Positions 52,871 to 60,689 of a DNA stretch of 64,000 bases are shown here, in pieces; positions within the stretch are counted from its first letter, which is position 1; every line of letters starts with the position of its first letter. This DNA comes from Geoalkalibacter halelectricus (GTDB lineage Bacteria > Desulfobacterota > Desulfuromonadia > Desulfuromonadales > Geoalkalibacteraceae). The translations under genes and the position numbers were made by a program. The notes beneath the pieces were generated by a model. The model ran no database searches. It saw only the letters and a program-made list of their open reading frames with translations, and was not told where the DNA came from. The stretch spans positions 2,915,001 through 2,979,000 of the forward strand of contig NZ_CP092109.1 of the NCBI RefSeq assembly GCF_025263685.1, given 5' to 3'.

Positions 52871-52976
52871 GGGAAATAAGGAATTCTTTACAATTTGCGT
52901 TTGCATCCTGACCAGAAATAAAATATAATTAAATTCCGCAAATCACCTGGTTGGAAATTTAGGGAGAATGCACACC

Positions 52977-53831
52977 ATGAGTCGGCGCAAACGGTTTGGC
53001 GAAATACTGGTCGAAGCGGGCATTATCGATGAGGCCTCCCTGCAAAAGGCCCTGGACCGTCAAAAAGGCTCGGGGCGGCGCCTGGGACGCGTGCTGGAAG
53101 AACTCGGCGTCGTCACGGAAAAGGATATCGCCGTGACCTTGTCGCGCCAATTCGGCTTCAAAACCGTGAGCGGTCTGGCCAAATACAATTTCCCCTCCGA
53201 GGTGCTTGCGCTGATCGACGGTTCCCAGGCCCTGGAAAAGCTGATTTTTCCCCTCAAGAAGCAGGACAAGACTCTGTTTTTGGCCATGGTCAACCCTCTG
53301 GACATGGAGACCCTGGACAATTTGGCCTTTCGCACCGGTTTCAAGATTGTTTCCTGCGTGACCACGCCTTCGGAAATTCAGGCGGCGGTGGATAAATTCT
53401 ACCTTGCCGCCAAACAGGAGCAGGCGTCGGACTGGTGGACCATTCTCATCGTCGAGGATCAGGAGTTGGCCCGCGCCGCCGCGGCGGCCGCCCTGCGCAA
53501 GCACGGCTATACGGTGGTGGAGGCGGAAAACGGCGCCGAGGGTCTCAAGCAGGCGCACCAGCACAAACCCCACCTGATTATTGCCGACACGATCATGCCG
53601 CGCATGGATGGCTACGAGATGTTTCGCGCCCTCAAGAGCAACCCGGCCACCGCCAAGATTCCCGTGATCGCCATGTCGTCCAAATCATCGGCGGAAGAAG
53701 AAGCGCAGGTGCTCGACATGGGCTATCTGGATTTCATCGCCAAGCCCATCAATCCGGTGCGCCTCGCGGCGCGCAGCCGGCGCGCCCTGCGGCTGACCTA
53801 CGGGGAGGGCGATCCGCCGCGGCGCACCTGA
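52977..53831 (+). CDS. MshEN-like domain fused to a response regulator receiver
   Basis: About 284 residues. The N-terminal ~145 residues resemble the GspE/MshE N-terminal domain: two RxGE(I/V)L..G.I....L..AL modules (RFGEILVEAGIIDEASLQKA; LGRVLEELGVVTEKDIAVTL) followed by a helical second half. In MshE this fold binds cyclic di-GMP. The C-terminal receiver has ILIVEDQE, acceptor Asp in LIIADTIMPRMDG and the Lys in FIAKPINP. The combination suggests a signal integrator without DNA-binding output. ATG 52977 fits GGGAG spacing better than ATG 52968. Confidence 0.8.
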   Translation: MSRRKRFGEILVEAGIIDEASLQKALDRQKGSGRRLGRVLEELGVVTEKDIAVTLSRQFGFKTVSGLAKYNFPSEVLALIDGSQALEKLIFPLKKQDKTLFLAMVNPLDMETLDNLAFRTGFKIVSCVTTPSEIQAAVDKFYLAAKQEQASDWWTILIVEDQELARAAAAAALRKHGYTVVEAENGAEGLKQAHQHKPHLIIADTIMPRMDGYEMFRALKSNPATAKIPVIAMSSKSSAEEEAQVLDMGYLDFIAKPINPVRLAARSRRALRLTYGEGDPPRRT

Positions 53832-54699: not shown

Positions 54700-56268
54700 A
54701 TGACTTCGGAGATGGTCCACCAGGCATTGATGAAGCCTCAAGCCTACCCGGACGCCCCGGAAAAAGTGGAATTCACCGAGACCCATGTATCGCGTCTCTA
54801 CTTTACCCGCAACTTTGTCTACAAAGTCAAAAAGCCCGTTGATTTCGGTTTTCTCAATTTCACCACCCTGGATCGGCGCCGTTTTTATTGCGAGGAGGAA
54901 GTGCGGCTGAACCGGCGCTTTTGCCCGGACACCTACTTGGGCATTAAGGAGATTCGCCGGGATTCCGGCGGCATTCATCTCAACGGCCAGGGCGAGATAC
55001 TGGATTATGCCGTGTGGATGAAGCGTCTTCCCGCCGCGCGCATGCTCGATCACCTCATCGAAGCTCGGTCCCCCGAATTAGAGGCGGTCATGCCTGCCTT
55101 GGGGGCACTGCTGGCCCGCATCGAGGAGCAGGCGCAAATCTGCCGCGAAAACAGCGGCATGAGCAATCTCGACGAGGTGCGCCGGAACTGGCGTGAAAAC
55201 TTCGATCAGATTGCCCCCTTCGTGGGACGTACACTCGTTGCCCCAACCCTGGATCTGTGCCGCCGCTATGTTGACGGCTTTCTACAGGCCAACGCGGCCC
55301 TGCTGCTGCAACGTGAGGCCGACGGTTATGTGCGCGATGGCCACGGCGACCTGCACGCCGAGCACATCTGCCTGACCGACCCGGTGAGGATTTATGACTG
55401 CATCGAATTCAACCGGCGTTTTCGCGTCGCCGACATCGCCGCCGACCTGGCGTTTTTGCTCATGGACCTTGAGGTCCGCGGCCGCCGCGACCTGGCCGCC
55501 GCCTTGCTTGAAGGCTATGTGAACAGCGCCGCTCCGGACCCTGAGCTTGGAACACTTCTGCCTTTCTATAAGATCTACCGCGCTTTCGTGCGCGGCAAGG
55601 TCGAGAGCTTTTTGAGTGCCGATGACAGCGCCGCCGAATCCGTGCGCAGCGCGGCGCGCCGGCGGGCCAGGCACTATTTCAATCTCGTGCTGGGCTATTT
55701 GATGCAGCCCTGCCTGATTTTGACCTGCGGCCTGATGGGCAGCGGCAAATCGACCCTGGCGCGGGCCTTGGCTCACAGCACCGGCGCACAAATTCTGCGC
55801 TCCGACGCCATCCGCAAGGAACTGGCCGCGGACGCGGCAAAAAATTCCCCCCACCACGACTTCGGCGCGGGCATATATTCGTCCGAATGGACCCGTCGCA
55901 CCTACGATAGCCTGCTGCAGAGTGCCGCCGCCGGCCTGGGGCGCGGCGCCATGCTCATCGTCGATGCGTCCTTTGCCGATGCGCAACAACGCCGCCTTTT
56001 CATGAATCTGGCCCAGAAAATCGGGCGCCCCTGCTTTGTCCTGCACCTGCGGAGCGACACCGCCACCCTCGAGCAGCGTCTGCGGCGGCGCAGCGCCGAG
56101 CAAACGGACATCTCAGACGGCCGGGTCGAACTGCTTGCCGCCCATCAGCGCGCTTTTTCAGCCCCGCAGGCCGACCCCTGGGTGGTTGAGATTGACGCAA
56201 CCGCCGACATAGATGAGAATGTCGAATATGTATTAGGCGAAATCATTCAGCGGGCAGGATTTCTCTGA
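54700..56268 (+). CDS. Bifunctional APH-family kinase and P-loop NTPase
   Basis: 522 residues. The N-terminal ~330 residues resemble aminoglycoside phosphotransferase/choline-kinase folds with the catalytic loop GHGDLHAEHI and metal loop YDCIEFNRRFR. The C-terminal ~185 residues are a P-loop kinase-like domain with Walker A CGLMGSGKST and an Arg-rich lid (LEQRLRRRSAEQ). Proteins of this build are common in Proteobacteria and annotated as AAA/APH fusions, with substrates not established. Nothing here indicates antibiotic resistance. The ATG of the small membrane gene overlaps its stop (TGATG). Confidence 0.8.
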   Translation: MTSEMVHQALMKPQAYPDAPEKVEFTETHVSRLYFTRNFVYKVKKPVDFGFLNFTTLDRRRFYCEEEVRLNRRFCPDTYLGIKEIRRDSGGIHLNGQGEILDYAVWMKRLPAARMLDHLIEARSPELEAVMPALGALLARIEEQAQICRENSGMSNLDEVRRNWRENFDQIAPFVGRTLVAPTLDLCRRYVDGFLQANAALLLQREADGYVRDGHGDLHAEHICLTDPVRIYDCIEFNRRFRVADIAADLAFLLMDLEVRGRRDLAAALLEGYVNSAAPDPELGTLLPFYKIYRAFVRGKVESFLSADDSAAESVRSAARRRARHYFNLVLGYLMQPCLILTCGLMGSGKSTLARALAHSTGAQILRSDAIRKELAADAAKNSPHHDFGAGIYSSEWTRRTYDSLLQSAAAGLGRGAMLIVDASFADAQQRRLFMNLAQKIGRPCFVLHLRSDTATLEQRLRRRSAEQTDISDGRVELLAAHQRAFSAPQADPWVVEIDATADIDENVEYVLGEIIQRAGFL

Positions 56269-56489
56269 TGAAAAATGCGCCGTCCTCGCACCTGCGGGAA
56301 GCCTGGGTTTTGTTCTTCGTTCTCGGGGTGGTCATGATCAACTACCCCTTTATTCACATCTTCAACAAGGACATTCTGATTTTCGGAATCCCCTTGCTGG
56401 TATTGTATTTCCTCGTCGGCTGGCCGCTGTCGATTCTGGTGGTTTATATTTTCGCCCGCATCCTGGATAAAACGGAACATTCTGAATAG
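56268..56489 (+). CDS. Small two-helix membrane protein, putative symporter partner
   Basis: 73 residues with two hydrophobic helices (WVLFFVLGVVMINYPFIHIF; LLVLYFLVGWPLSILVVYIF) and a charged tail. It is similar in size and layout to small subunits encoded next to SSF sodium:solute symporters. It starts one base into the preceding stop and ends 9 bp before the symporter-phosphatase gene, so it is probably translated with it. Confidence 0.75.
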   Translation: MKNAPSSHLREAWVLFFVLGVVMINYPFIHIFNKDILIFGIPLLVLYFLVGWPLSILVVYIFARILDKTEHSE

Positions 56490-56498
56490 CGCGACCTC

Positions 56499-59400
56499 AT
56501 GGTGACTCTCGAGTTCGTCATCCTCATCACTCTCTCTTATTTCGCCCTGCTCTTCGCGGTCGCGTATTACGCCGACAAGCGCCGCGAGCAAGGCCGCAGC
56601 ATCATTTCCAACTCCCACATTTACTCCCTGTCCCTGGCCGTATACTTCACCACCTGGACTTTTTACGGCAGCGTCGGGCGCGCGGCGACCTCGGGACTCG
56701 ATTTTCTGCCCGTCTACCTGGGCCCGACCCTGATCGCCTTTTCCTGGTGGTTTCTGCTGCGCAAGATGGTGCACATCAGCAAGGAGCAGAACATCGTCAG
56801 CATTGCCGACTTCATCTCCAGCCGCTACGGCAAATCCGCACCGCTGGGGGCCATCGTCACCCTGTTTGCCGTAGTCGGCATCATGCCCTACATCGCTTTG
56901 CAGCTCAAAGCGGTGTCCCATACTTTCGAGTTGATCGTCCTGCACGGGATTTCCGAAACCGGGGCGCGCGGCTTTCCGCCCTGGTTTCCCGCCAATCTTG
57001 ACACCGCCTTCATCATCGCCGCAGTGCTTTCGCTCTTCGGCGTGCTGTTCGGCGCCCGCACGCTCGATGCCGCGGCGCGGCATGAGGGGCTGGTGGCGGC
57101 CATCGCCCTGGAATCGGTGATCAAGATCGTGGCTTTCATGGCTGTGGGCATCTTTGTGACCTACGGCCTCTTCAATGGCTTCTCCGACATCTTCACCCAG
57201 TTTCTGCAGCAGTTTCCAGAGCGCAAGCACCTGATCATGCTGGGAACCGAGGAGATTCCCTACGCCAAGTGGTTTACCCTGACTTTCATCTCCATGATGT
57301 CGGTGATGTTTCTGCCGCGCCAGTTCCACATCATGGTCATCGAAAACTCGGATGAAAACCACATTCGCAGCGCCATGTGGCGGTTTCCCCTCTATATGTT
57401 CCTCATCAATCTGTTCGTCCTGCCGATTGCCCTGGGCGGGCTGCTGCTGACCGGCGGCGACACCACCAACGCCGATTATTTCGTGCTGCACCTGCCCTTG
57501 GAGGCCGGTCAAACCTGGCTCGCCATGCTGGTGTTTCTCGGCGGCTTCTCGGCGGCCGCCGGCATGGTCATGGTCGCCTCGGTGGCCCTGGCGACCATGA
57601 TTCTCAACCATCTGGTCATGCCCATTGTGCTGCGCCTTCATGTGCAGGCCGGCGACATTTCCGGATTGCTGATCAACATCAAACGACTGGCCATCGTCGC
57701 CGTGGTCTTTCAGGGCTATCTCTATTTCAAGATCATCGGTGATACCCTGGCACTGGTGAATATCGGACTGATTTCCTTTGTCGCGGCAACCCAGTTCGCT
57801 CCCGCGGCCATCGGCGGCTTGTACTGGGAGCGCGCCAACCGCCGCGGGGCCATGGCCGGCATCCTGCTCGGCTTCTGCGTGTGGTTCTACACCCTGATGG
57901 TTCCCTCCTTTGTGCGCTCGGGCTGGATGGAAAGCGAGATTCTCGAAAAAGGGCTGTTTGGACTGAGCATCTTGCGGCCCACTGAACTCTTCGGCCTGGC
58001 GGGATTCGATCTCTGGTCCCATGCCCTGTTCTGGAGCCTGTTTTTCAATCTTGCGGCCTATCTGTTCTTTTCCCTGTTCACCTCGCGAAGCCCCCTGGAA
58101 GTGGAACAGGCCGAAAAATTCGTCAATGCCTACGGCTATCAGGAAGAAGAGCAGACGCGCAAACGGATCAGCAAAGCGCCCTCGGTCATGGAGTTCGTCG
58201 AGCTGATGGCCAAATTCATCGGCGAAAAGCAGGCCCATACCTCCATCGCCGAATATCTCGGCGACCGCGAAATCGACGAGCGCGGCGGCCTTTCGGAATA
58301 TGAGCTGCCGAATCTCAAACGCTTCACCGAACGCACCCTGGCCGGTTCCGTCGGCGCCGCCCCGGCGCGCATCATCATCGAGAATTATCTGTCCGCGCGC
58401 GGCAGCAAGATGGAAGACGTCTTTGATATCTTCGGGTCGGTGACTCTGAGCCGCACCACCAGCCGGGAGCAGCTCGGCGTGCTTTACGAGGCGGCGCGCA
58501 TCGTCGCCAGCGGCGACCACCTCGATGACATTTTCGACCAGATCCTCGAACTTCTCATCCAGCAGTTCAAATTCGATCTGTGCGTCATCCGCATCCTTGA
58601 CGAGGACAAGAACACCCTGGTGGTGCGCTGCCAGAACGGGATGACTTCCGAGCATCTGGGCGAGTCAGAGCGCGACATTTCGCGCGACACCTATATCGGC
58701 GAGGCCTTTCTCACCAATTCCGTCGTCAAGGCCAACGACACGGATTTTCTCGACAAGCCGCACTCGGCCCAAATCATTCACCGCGAGGGTATCAAATCCT
58801 TCGCCCACGCTCCCATCACCATCGAGGGTCAGCCCATCGGGGTGCTATCGGCCTTCTCGCGGTCGGTCAAGGGTATTTTCACCGACGAATTCATCGCCCT
58901 GTTCCGCAGCCTCGCCGGGCAAATCGGCATCGCCTGGCGCAACGCCATCCAAACCTCCAAGCTCATCGAGGCTCGCGGACGCGAACGCGAGTTGGAAATC
59001 GCCATGAACATCCAGATGAGCCTTTTGCCGACCAGCGTCCCCAATGTGCCGGGCATCAGACTTGCTGGGGTGTGCGTTCCCGCCAGTCAGGTGGGGGGCG
59101 ATTATTACGATTATTTGGTGCGCGACAACAACAGCCTCGATCTCGTCATTGCCGATGTCTCGGGGCACAATGTCGGCGCCGCGCTACTGATGGCCGAAAC
59201 CCGCACCTTCATCCAGGCCCGGGCACGCGGGATTCATACGCCGAGCCAGATGATGGACGAACTCAATCGCTTTTTCTATGATGATCTGACGCGGGCCGAA
59301 CTCTTCATCACCATGTTTTACTTGAATTTCGACACCCAGACCCGGCGCATCTCCTTTGCCAATGCCGGCCACAATCCCCCCCTGATTTGGCGTCACGGCC

Positions 59401-59729
59401 AACGCAGTTGCGAAGAACTCGACGCCGAAGGGCTGATTTTGGGAGTCAAGAAGGAGGTCAAATTCTTCGAGGAAAAGGGCCAGCTCGACCCTGGAGACGT
59501 CCTCCTGCTCTATACCGACGGCATCATCGAAGCCGAGAACGATTTGGGGGAATTTTTCGGGACCGAGCGGCTGTGCACTCTTCTGCACGAATATCACGAA
59601 CTCGAACCCGATGCGATCCTCAACCAGATCCTCGACCAGGTCCGCCTGTTTACCGGGACCCAGAATTTCTCCGATGATGTCTCCATGATCGTCATGCGCG
59701 TTCAGCCCGCTGGCACCGACAGCAATTGA
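56499..59729 (+). CDS. Sodium:solute symporter-like sensor fused to GAF and PP2C (SpoIIE/RsbU) phosphatase
   Basis: 1076 residues. Residues 1 to about 535 form 12-13 TM helices of the SSF/PutP family (for example FTTWTFYGSVGRAATSGLDF, YAKWFTLTFISMMSVMFLPR), as in CbrA-type sensors. A linker (about 545-640) leads to a GAF domain (about 650-810). The C-terminal PP2C domain has metal ligands in GGDYYDY (near 866), DVSGHNVGAALLMAETR (near 885), LYTDGIIEAEN (near 1005) and FSDDVSM (near 1058). It should dephosphorylate a STAS antagonist, and such a gene follows directly with its kinase. Whether the SSF part transports or only senses a solute is open. Confidence 0.9.
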   Translation: MVTLEFVILITLSYFALLFAVAYYADKRREQGRSIISNSHIYSLSLAVYFTTWTFYGSVGRAATSGLDFLPVYLGPTLIAFSWWFLLRKMVHISKEQNIVSIADFISSRYGKSAPLGAIVTLFAVVGIMPYIALQLKAVSHTFELIVLHGISETGARGFPPWFPANLDTAFIIAAVLSLFGVLFGARTLDAAARHEGLVAAIALESVIKIVAFMAVGIFVTYGLFNGFSDIFTQFLQQFPERKHLIMLGTEEIPYAKWFTLTFISMMSVMFLPRQFHIMVIENSDENHIRSAMWRFPLYMFLINLFVLPIALGGLLLTGGDTTNADYFVLHLPLEAGQTWLAMLVFLGGFSAAAGMVMVASVALATMILNHLVMPIVLRLHVQAGDISGLLINIKRLAIVAVVFQGYLYFKIIGDTLALVNIGLISFVAATQFAPAAIGGLYWERANRRGAMAGILLGFCVWFYTLMVPSFVRSGWMESEILEKGLFGLSILRPTELFGLAGFDLWSHALFWSLFFNLAAYLFFSLFTSRSPLEVEQAEKFVNAYGYQEEEQTRKRISKAPSVMEFVELMAKFIGEKQAHTSIAEYLGDREIDERGGLSEYELPNLKRFTERTLAGSVGAAPARIIIENYLSARGSKMEDVFDIFGSVTLSRTTSREQLGVLYEAARIVASGDHLDDIFDQILELLIQQFKFDLCVIRILDEDKNTLVVRCQNGMTSEHLGESERDISRDTYIGEAFLTNSVVKANDTDFLDKPHSAQIIHREGIKSFAHAPITIEGQPIGVLSAFSRSVKGIFTDEFIALFRSLAGQIGIAWRNAIQTSKLIEARGRERELEIAMNIQMSLLPTSVPNVPGIRLAGVCVPASQVGGDYYDYLVRDNNSLDLVIADVSGHNVGAALLMAETRTFIQARARGIHTPSQMMDELNRFFYDDLTRAELFITMFYLNFDTQTRRISFANAGHNPPLIWRHGQRSCEELDAEGLILGVKKEVKFFEEKGQLDPGDVLLLYTDGIIEAENDLGEFFGTERLCTLLHEYHELEPDAILNQILDQVRLFTGTQNFSDDVSMIVMRVQPAGTDSN

Positions 59730-59908
59730 TTATATAAGACCCGCGCGGGTCAGACCCGTCGAGCTGCCGAAAAAAAAACAGGCGTGGCACAACGGGGTGA
59801 GTTATGCTATCGTTATGATTGAATCAATTTAACTAGACTCGAAAAATTCGGAGTGCGGCGAAAGGCCTAAAATCGTTCGCCGGGTGCTTCTATGCAAAGG
59901 AGAATGCA

Positions 59909-60244
59909 ATGATCCTTAAGGTTGAAGAAAAAGGCGAGGTGGTGGTCATCCAAGTCAAGGAAGAGCGCCTGGATGCCCATAACAGCGGAGAACTCAAAAG
60001 CCAGATGCTGAGCCTGTTCGAGGAAAGCAAGAATCACATCGTCATCGATCTTCAGGAAGTGCGCTTTGTTGATTCCTCGGGTCTGGGCGCGTTGGTTTCA
60101 GGATTCAAGAACGCCAGTGCCCGCAACGGCAACCTGAAACTCTGCGGTCTGCAGCCCCAGGTCAAGTCCATGTTCGAACTGACCCGCCTGCATCGGGTTT
60201 TTGAAATTTTTTCGGGTCTTGAGGAAGCGCTGGCGAGTTTTTGA
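59909..60244 (+). CDS. STAS-domain anti-sigma factor antagonist (RsbV/SpoIIAA-like)
   Basis: 111 residues. The phosphorylatable Ser is in VDSSGLGALV (S56/S57). It should bind the kinase encoded next when unphosphorylated, and be reset by the PP2C domain of the upstream symporter fusion. AAAGGAG lies 6 bp before the ATG. The 179-bp gap upstream contains a GACCCGCGCGGGTC palindrome and AT-rich sequence that may hold its own promoter. Confidence 0.92.
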   Translation: MILKVEEKGEVVVIQVKEERLDAHNSGELKSQMLSLFEESKNHIVIDLQEVRFVDSSGLGALVSGFKNASARNGNLKLCGLQPQVKSMFELTRLHRVFEIFSGLEEALASF

Positions 60245-60263
60245 ACGGTCTCTCGGGGGGCGT

Positions 60264-60689
60264 ATGAAAAACGAAAGAATCGAGGTGGATATCAAAGTCC
60301 CCAATCAGACCCGCTATCTTAGTCTGATCGGAAAAATCGGCGAGGACGTGGCGAGAACACTAAAGAAATACAAGGGTGACCGCGAGGAACTCGCCTACCA
60401 CATCAACCTGGTTCTGACCGAATCCATGACCAATGCCATCCGGCATGCGCACGAAGGCGACCCCACCAAGGAGGTCCACATCACCATCACCATCGAGGAC
60501 AAGGAACTCTGCATCAAGGTTTACGACCAGGGCCAAGGCTTCGATATCAGCACCCTGCCCGTTCCCGAAATCCGCTGCCTGGAAGAACACGGGCGTGGTG
60601 TTTTCATTATCCACACCCTCATGGACAGCGTCAGCTATCGCAAATTCAACGGCGGACATGTACTGGAAATGATCAAGGCCCTTCAATAA
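60264..60689 (+). CDS. Anti-sigma factor-type serine kinase (RsbW-like HATPase)
   Basis: About 141 residues, a stand-alone GHKL ATPase: N box LTESMTNAIRHAHEGDP, G1 VYDQGQGFDI, G2 EEHGRGVFIIHTLMDSV. It would phosphorylate the STAS protein encoded 19 bp upstream, and when free hold its target inactive. No sigma factor gene is nearby, so the target could be a sigma factor elsewhere or a non-sigma protein. ATG 60264 follows GGGGGGCG. Confidence 0.9.
   Translation: MKNERIEVDIKVPNQTRYLSLIGKIGEDVARTLKKYKGDREELAYHINLVLTESMTNAIRHAHEGDPTKEVHITITIEDKELCIKVYDQGQGFDISTLPVPEIRCLEEHGRGVFIIHTLMDSVSYRKFNGGHVLEMIKALQ

Follow-up and report, generated by a model that had tools for sequence, protein, structure and literature searches.

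A symporter-fold sensor fused to a PP2C phosphatase, encoded with STAS and GHKL proteins, as a putative partner switch in Geoalkalibacter halelectricus

Results

The window analyzed here, a stretch of 64,000 nucleotides from Geoalkalibacter halelectricus (contig NZ_CP092109.1, positions 2,915,001 to 2,979,000 of the forward strand), carries four adjacent genes at positions 56268..60689. In order, these encode a small two-helix membrane protein, a fusion of SLC5, STAC, GAF and PP2C domains, a STAS protein, and a stand-alone GHKL kinase (Table 1). An original prediction made from these letters alone had described the four genes as a partner-switching module, and its gene order and domain content hold, with all catalytic motifs intact. 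The ratio of nonsynonymous to synonymous substitution rates (dN/dS) for the four genes is 0.014-0.14 in the pairs for which it could be computed, several of which are near saturation at synonymous sites. The module is real, conserved and intact, and it is a new variant that combines two known kinds of regulatory system.

Table 1. Features of the operon, in window coordinates.
Feature	Position	Strand	Basis
Gene for a 522-aa fusion of APH-like and AAA_33 P-loop kinase parts (the operon probably starts here)	54700..56268	+	Pfam AAA_33 5.7e-30, APH 1.1e-5
Small two-helix membrane protein, CbrX-like positional partner of SLC5-STAC sensors	56268..56489	+	hydrophobic stretches, dN/dS, spacing, profile searches
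SLC5-STAC-GAF-PP2C fusion (transceptor phosphatase), 1076 aa	56499..59729	+	
SLC5 domain (sodium:solute symporter fold), residues 1-535	56499..58103	+	
Lys209 codon, equivalent of CbrA Lys196 in the Na2 site	57123..57125	+	alignment
STAC domain, residues about 560-634	58176..58400	+	alignment to STAC part of 10ed; four helices in predicted model
GAF domain, residues 670-816	58506..58946	+	
47-residue GAF-PP2C linker helix, residues 796-842, start overlapping the end of the GAF match	58884..59024	+	predicted model
SpoIIE/RsbU-type PP2C phosphatase domain	59025..59702	+	
STAS anti-anti-sigma-like protein, candidate phospho-acceptor Ser56 (codon 60074-60076)	59909..60244	+	
Stand-alone GHKL (RsbW/SpoIIAB-like) kinase, N, G1 and G2 boxes intact	60264..60689	+	

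Residues 4-634 of the fusion match the SLC5-STAC structure of the sensor kinase CbrA (10ed) with an E value of 3e-79, which bears out the kinship to CbrA proposed earlier. As in CbrA, an SLC5 fold is followed by a STAC domain, and a PP2C domain then occupies the place where SLC5-STAC kinases carry HisKA-HATPase domains (Pfam). The fusion is a transceptor of the CbrA/CrbS type in which a SpoIIE/RsbU phosphatase takes the place of the histidine-kinase output, and it is hence a variant rather than a member of the kinase group. The metal center of the PP2C domain, on which the original prediction depended, appears to be retained: Asp868, Asp886, Asp1007, Asp1059 and Asp1060 are invariant in 29/29 aligned fusions, and we take the metal-binding residues among these five to be those typical of the family. 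A predicted structure, built with an alignment of 12 sequences (the window's and those of 11 named loci), recovers the SLC5, GAF and PP2C folds. One relative (L016, 1498-4707) has an in-frame TAG after fusion residue 688, near the start of the GAF domain, and was omitted from the fusion alignment and from the tree described below.

The two downstream genes supply the remaining parts of an RsbU-RsbV-RsbW-like circuit, all of which are present as predicted. Ser56 of the STAS protein is invariant in the 16 sequences aligned (16/16, from a total of 29), and it aligns with a SpoIIAA residue that is Ser in chain 1th8_B and Ala in chain 1tid_B, the latter presumably representing the S58A variant. The GHKL kinase aligns with RsbW and SpoIIAB. 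Its Glu54, Asn58, Asp89-x-Gly91-x-Gly93 and Gly111-Arg-Gly residues, which constitute the N, G1 and G2 boxes (numbers are one higher than those counted from the ATG), are invariant in 28/28 sequences; of the 29 available, L011 was omitted because it is cut by a contig end. The genome contains one stand-alone STAS protein over the PF01740 cut-off, the other two matches lying in frames of 539 and 593 residues, and one RsbW-like GHKL protein, which scores 88 bits versus 33 for the next match.

Conservation of gene linkage was assessed in the best 30 fusions of an order-level search (58 genomes) and the best 30 matches of a phylum search (395 genomes). At the order level, a fusion match at E<=1e-40 is found in 53/58 genomes, some as fragments. 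The STAS and GHKL genes follow the fusion in 29/30 of the best loci, and the exception stops at a contig end in a genome that carries a STAS-GHKL pair on another contig. The pair likewise follows the fusion in 10 of 11 loci L040-L049 and L052 and in 11 of 12 loci L104-L115. In the phylum search, for which two candidates were scored per genome, a full-length fusion (E<=1e-60) is present in 17 of 395 genomes, and GHKL orthologues at E<=8.2e-49 occur in the same 17. The next complete GHKL match is at 7.7e-24, and such weak matches come from four genomes outside the class. All 17 genomes belong to the class of the window's organism, which we take to be Desulfuromonadia by assignment through named relatives; among the named relatives with a fusion are Geothermobacter, Malonomonas, Desulfuromusa, Citrifermentans and Geomonas. 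We reject chance adjacency of these genes on the strength of this conserved linkage and their co-occurrence in the same 17 genomes. Homologous loci keep the link between the sensor and the STAS-kinase pair, the absence of which would have counted against the original prediction.

The transcription unit probably begins one gene further upstream, with the APH/AAA_33 kinase gene, whose stop overlaps the start of the small gene by one base. Clustering of neighboring genes places an APH/AAA_33 kinase cluster upstream in 14/20 long regions, and in these 20 regions the unit often ends before an opposite-strand gene such as lgt. Two genes upstream of the operon, at 52968-53831, lies a gene for a protein with MshEN and response-regulator receiver domains.

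The small gene is upstream of the fusion in 30/30 of the best loci, overlapping it in 23/30 and never separated from it by more than 9 bases. A profile built only from the PP2C operons of the order matches, at E<=1e-3, the frame upstream of 66/80 SLC5-STAC kinases. After one iteration, which adds kinase-upstream matches to the profile, it matches the frame upstream of 73/80 kinases and 20/23 phosphatases. The other five matches among 13,157 frames are genes upstream of five further sensors, one of them the split phosphatase locus L112, and there is no stray match among these frames. In total, the family lies just upstream of 76/80 kinases and 22/23 phosphatases, or 98/103 SLC5-STAC sensors of either output (four unclassed frames, three of which have a small gene, are excluded from the 103), and its hosts include Pseudomonadota, Bacteroidota and Chloroflexota. 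Not every sensor has such a partner: no family member lies directly before the gene of L213, a Pseudomonas kinase of CrbS architecture. Also lacking a small gene directly upstream are L050, L053, L055 and the extra sensor copy L046, while L051 cannot be judged since its frame fills the locus. L050, L053 and L055 are very long SLC5-STAC kinases of one family, with frames of about 1355-1450 residues.

CbrX, too, is a small two-helix peptide whose gene lies immediately before that of an SLC5-STAC protein, and the small gene of the window is its positional counterpart. CbrX itself matches the family weakly (E 0.0041 with the iterated profile in a three-locus search), and a search of the PDB with the family profile found no CbrX chain. 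The small-protein profiles gave only partial matches to solved structures, namely MCT8 and other unrelated chains, and the window's protein has no Pfam or NCBIfam match over cut-off. Some relatives match DUF3311 weakly (2/30, best 0.0068; 3/39 members, best 0.048), and single ones score better against families with unrelated names (down to 0.00098); we do not read kinship into any of these matches. CbrX has been reported as conserved in Pseudomonas and Azotobacter, with a role judged to be translational coupling rather than one of the peptide (PMC6591292), and was later seen bound to CbrA, though it is dispensable for growth on histidine (PMC13022988). Because the small family is so broadly conserved and its dN/dS is low, we argue for a protein role, against a purely translational one. 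The earlier suggestion that the small membrane protein is a partner of the sensor is supported as likely.

There are also genomes in which the sensor and the STAS-GHKL pair come apart. The five order-level genomes without a fusion all belong to one family (f4). At the corresponding place the fusion is gone, while the STAS gene is kept in 5/5 with the GHKL gene next to it. At L187 the gene caller chose an overlapping frame over the GHKL gene, and a profile search places GHKL beside STAS there too. The small gene is also gone, as judged by a simple gene caller and phmmer, although this is plain only at L186, where an APH/AAA_33-type gene ends 3 bases before the STAS gene. In four of the five loci an lgt-like gene (judged by its N-terminus) follows the pair. 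That f4 lost both the small gene and the sensor yet kept STAS and GHKL indicates that the first two behave as one unit and that the pair is useful alone. Conversely, four genomes (G014, G016, G049, G056) carry seven extra full-length fusions with no STAS or GHKL gene in the fetched stretch (for L218, this ends about 490 bases past the fusion). Each of these genomes has one STAS and one GHKL gene, four of the seven extra fusions have a small gene upstream, and the putative ligand pocket is changed in six of the seven. Both features, a small upstream gene of its own and a changed pocket, are seen in L214 (G016), L216 (G049), L218 (G056) and L219 (G014).

These exceptions bear on the possibility that all PP2C phosphatases of the cell converge on the STAS-GHKL pair as a common hub, with the neighboring sensor as only one of several inputs. 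Its prospects are evenly balanced in our estimation, and it is compatible with control of the pair by this sensor. Marginal second matches and split or truncated genes aside, a single STAS and a single GHKL orthologue are found per genome in 58/58, whereas ten genomes have 2-5 SpoIIE matches apiece, and the five sensor-less genomes keep 2-5 other SpoIIE matches along with the pair. The extra sensor copies that lack an adjoining pair, most with an altered pocket, point in the same direction, and the data fit a hub with several inputs. However, sensor and pair adjoin each other at almost every locus, which speaks for this sensor as the main input, and STAS-like proteins missed by PF01740 could serve the other phosphatases (PF13466 was not searched genome-wide). 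Thus, of the original proposal that this sensor feeds the pair, the link itself stands, but the pair is not tied to this sensor alone.

In the window's own genome there are five SpoIIE phosphatases, including that of the operon. Two short PP2C proteins (L005 and L004; 264 and 269 aa), encoded at G000:C1:348075-348659 and 3961551-3962132, have a Cys-x-Trp-Cys-Cys motif near the N-terminus and no other Pfam match. It is possible that they are further inputs to the STAS-GHKL hub.

As possible targets of the kinase, the genome encodes five Sigma70_r2 (PF04542) factors: RpoD, an RpoS-like factor (under the curated cut-off), RpoH, a FliA/WhiG-type factor, and one extracytoplasmic function (ECF) factor. 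None reaches the SigB/F/G cut-off (best TIGR02980 score 131.9 bits versus 234.35). As the original prediction had observed, no sigma factor gene is adjacent; no Sigma70_r2 gene lies within 350 kb of the operon, and the nearest is about 355 kb away. The partner held by the GHKL kinase may be one of these five or something else. That the kinase is a classical anti-sigma factor for RpoS, RpoH, FliA or the ECF factor is, in our estimation, rather less likely than not. Its closest solved relatives by sequence are RsbW (6m36) and SpoIIAB (1til, 1l0o), and candidate sigma factors are at hand. In the other direction, none of these factors is encoded nearby or passes the SigB/F/G cut-off (neighbors in other genomes were clustered rather than scanned for sigma domains), and several partner switches, such as SiaABCD, BtrUVW and IcfG, act on targets other than sigma factors.

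Lys209 of the SLC5 domain aligns with Lys196 of CbrA. It is invariant in 29/29 fusions, and a lysine occupies this position in 131/132 phosphatase, kinase and unclassed rows. CbrA is reported to be proton-coupled, with Lys196 filling its Na2 site (PMC13022988). The original prediction had allowed for the sensing of a sodium flux. Because a lysine stands at the Na2 position as in CbrA, sodium coupling of this domain is unlikely, and we set it aside: a sodium-driven sensor would suit the sodium:solute symporter fold to which the domain belongs, but with Lys209 aligned to the residue that fills the Na2 site we regard it as very improbable.

With the Pseudomonas aestuarii CbrA (L209) as a guide, nine CbrA positions (eight pocket residues and Lys196; PMC13022988) were located in the other sequences. 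The window has YTWTFYKSF where CbrA has YSWAFYKFF, such that 3/9 differ. Exact YTWTFYKSF occurs in 41/52 PP2C rows (L046 included), 38/80 kinases and 1/8 other paralogues. It is also exact, with 9/9 positions identical to the window, in a Pseudomonas kinase with PAS, HisKA, HATPase and receiver domains, the architecture given for CrbS/MxtR (PMC7918813), which serves acetate use (PMC9100948). Because of this identity we guess, with low confidence, that the ligand might be acetate or another short monocarboxylate. So widespread a pattern may also accommodate several ligands.

Other proteins of the phylum join the same SLC5-STAC-GAF portion to a histidine kinase. These proteins (L050, L051, L053-L063) are 47-52% identical to the fusion over about 820 residues but end in HisKA-HATPase domains (Pfam, L058) and have no STAS or GHKL gene in the fetched flanks. 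In a FastTree analysis of 132 SLC5-STAC sequences (two pairs identical; L112, with a split frame, and L116 and L118, at contig ends, omitted), a single branch with support 100 sets apart all PP2C rows (51/51), and the phylum's own kinases adjoin this clade. This is most simply read as a single replacement of a kinase output by a phosphatase, although the tree is midpoint-rooted and its root is not proven.

Discussion

We hypothesize that this operon is a nutrient-responsive partner switch in which an SLC5-STAC sensor controls the STAS-GHKL pair through its PP2C domain, and assign this reading a probability of roughly 70%. Together with the small protein as its partner, the SLC5 domain would bind a small solute; it probably either is proton-coupled or does not transport. 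The state of the sensor would then pass through the STAC domain, the GAF domain and the long linker helix to the phosphatase, which when active would strip phosphate from Ser56 of the STAS protein. Dephosphorylated STAS could bind the GHKL kinase and take it off its target, whereas the kinase would oppose the phosphatase by rephosphorylating STAS.

Several observations weigh against this scheme. The confidence of the predicted fusion model is modest for its 12 sequences (predicted local distance difference test score, pLDDT, 74; predicted template modeling score, pTM, 0.49). The STAS-GHKL pair persists in five sensor-less genomes and so has a use without the sensor, and the four additional SpoIIE phosphatases of the window's genome might also feed it. 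The acetate guess comes from nine aligned positions, at which 42/80 kinase rows differ at least once (two only by N-terminal gaps). Nor does TIGR03458, a marker of acetate activation, distinguish the lineages, as 4/5 sensor-less genomes have it. This CoA-transferase family is matched in 50/58 genomes, none over the curated cut-off. Pelobacter carbinolicus is described as not oxidizing acetate (PMC3543383), and loss of the sensor in family f4 would be one evolutionary event.

Finally, the transmembrane part of CbrA is reported to be dispensable for the response when the rest of the protein is overproduced (PMC6591292), and for that reason the SLC5 part may, by analogy, only modulate the output. 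Carried further, this would make the SLC5 domain a membrane anchor or vestigial transporter, with a cytoplasmic signal read by the GAF domain, which alone would control the phosphatase. The GAF domain adjoins the linker helix in the predicted model, and its fold has been solved for a Geobacter relative (2qyb). We nevertheless consider this unlikely: conservation of the pocket and of Lys209 parallels that in the kinases, the small partner accompanies SLC5 with either output, and both are missing together in one family, none of which a simple anchor would require.

A partner switch governed by the transceptor remains our preferred reading, and each half of it has known relatives. CbrA/CbrX of Pseudomonas (10ed, PMC13022988) shares the SLC5-STAC architecture, the Na2-site lysine and a small hairpin peptide encoded just upstream, but CbrA carries PAS and histidine kinase domains and pairs with CbrB. 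CrbS/MxtR and RpuS, kinases described for acetate and pyruvate (PMC9100948, PMC5715377), also have an SLC5-STAC sensor, with a two-component output instead of PP2C, STAS and GHKL. RsbU-RsbV-RsbW and SpoIIE-SpoIIAA-SpoIIAB have the same PP2C, STAS and GHKL catalytic residues, whereas the window has a membrane transceptor as input and its genome no SigB/F/G-type sigma factor over cut-off. SiaABCD of Pseudomonas differs in that SiaB is not a GHKL protein, its output is a diguanylate cyclase, and its sensor is unlike SLC5.

In Actinobacteria, SSS-GAF-PP2C_SIG-HATPase_c proteins likewise unite symporter, GAF and PP2C in one protein. Unlike the fusion, they also include HATPase_c as printed, and the section concerned gives no operon, STAS partner or STAC analysis (PMC7918813). 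Our literature search found no SLC5-STAC-PP2C protein with STAS and GHKL partners, and no such partner switch for Geobacter or Desulfuromonas relatives.

A broader proposal, which we offer tentatively and hold to be rather less probable than its alternatives taken together, is that SLC5-STAC and its CbrX-like subunit form a portable input cassette. This would have moved once, in the ancestor of the class, from a two-component to a partner-switching output, where it would be the main feed of the cell's only STAS-GHKL hub. Duplicated sensors with altered pockets would feed the same hub, and acetate or a similar monocarboxylate would set a class-wide, non-SigB circuit in these metal- and sulfur-reducing bacteria. 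If true, the small peptide would be a genuine subunit conserved across phyla, with a role beyond that of the translational leader first proposed in the case of CbrX.

For transceptors of the CbrA type, the way in which a transporter-like domain signals to its output has yet to be worked out. In this operon the likely substrate of the phosphatase is encoded alongside, such that STAS phosphorylation could provide a direct read-out. The breadth of the small-protein family likewise makes the role of CbrX testable outside Pseudomonas. The combination of parts, the small partner found across phyla, and the apparently single exchange of output all make the system worth testing. If the ligand is acetate, this circuit would be a core regulator of the acetate-oxidizing relatives of Geobacter and Desulfuromonas.

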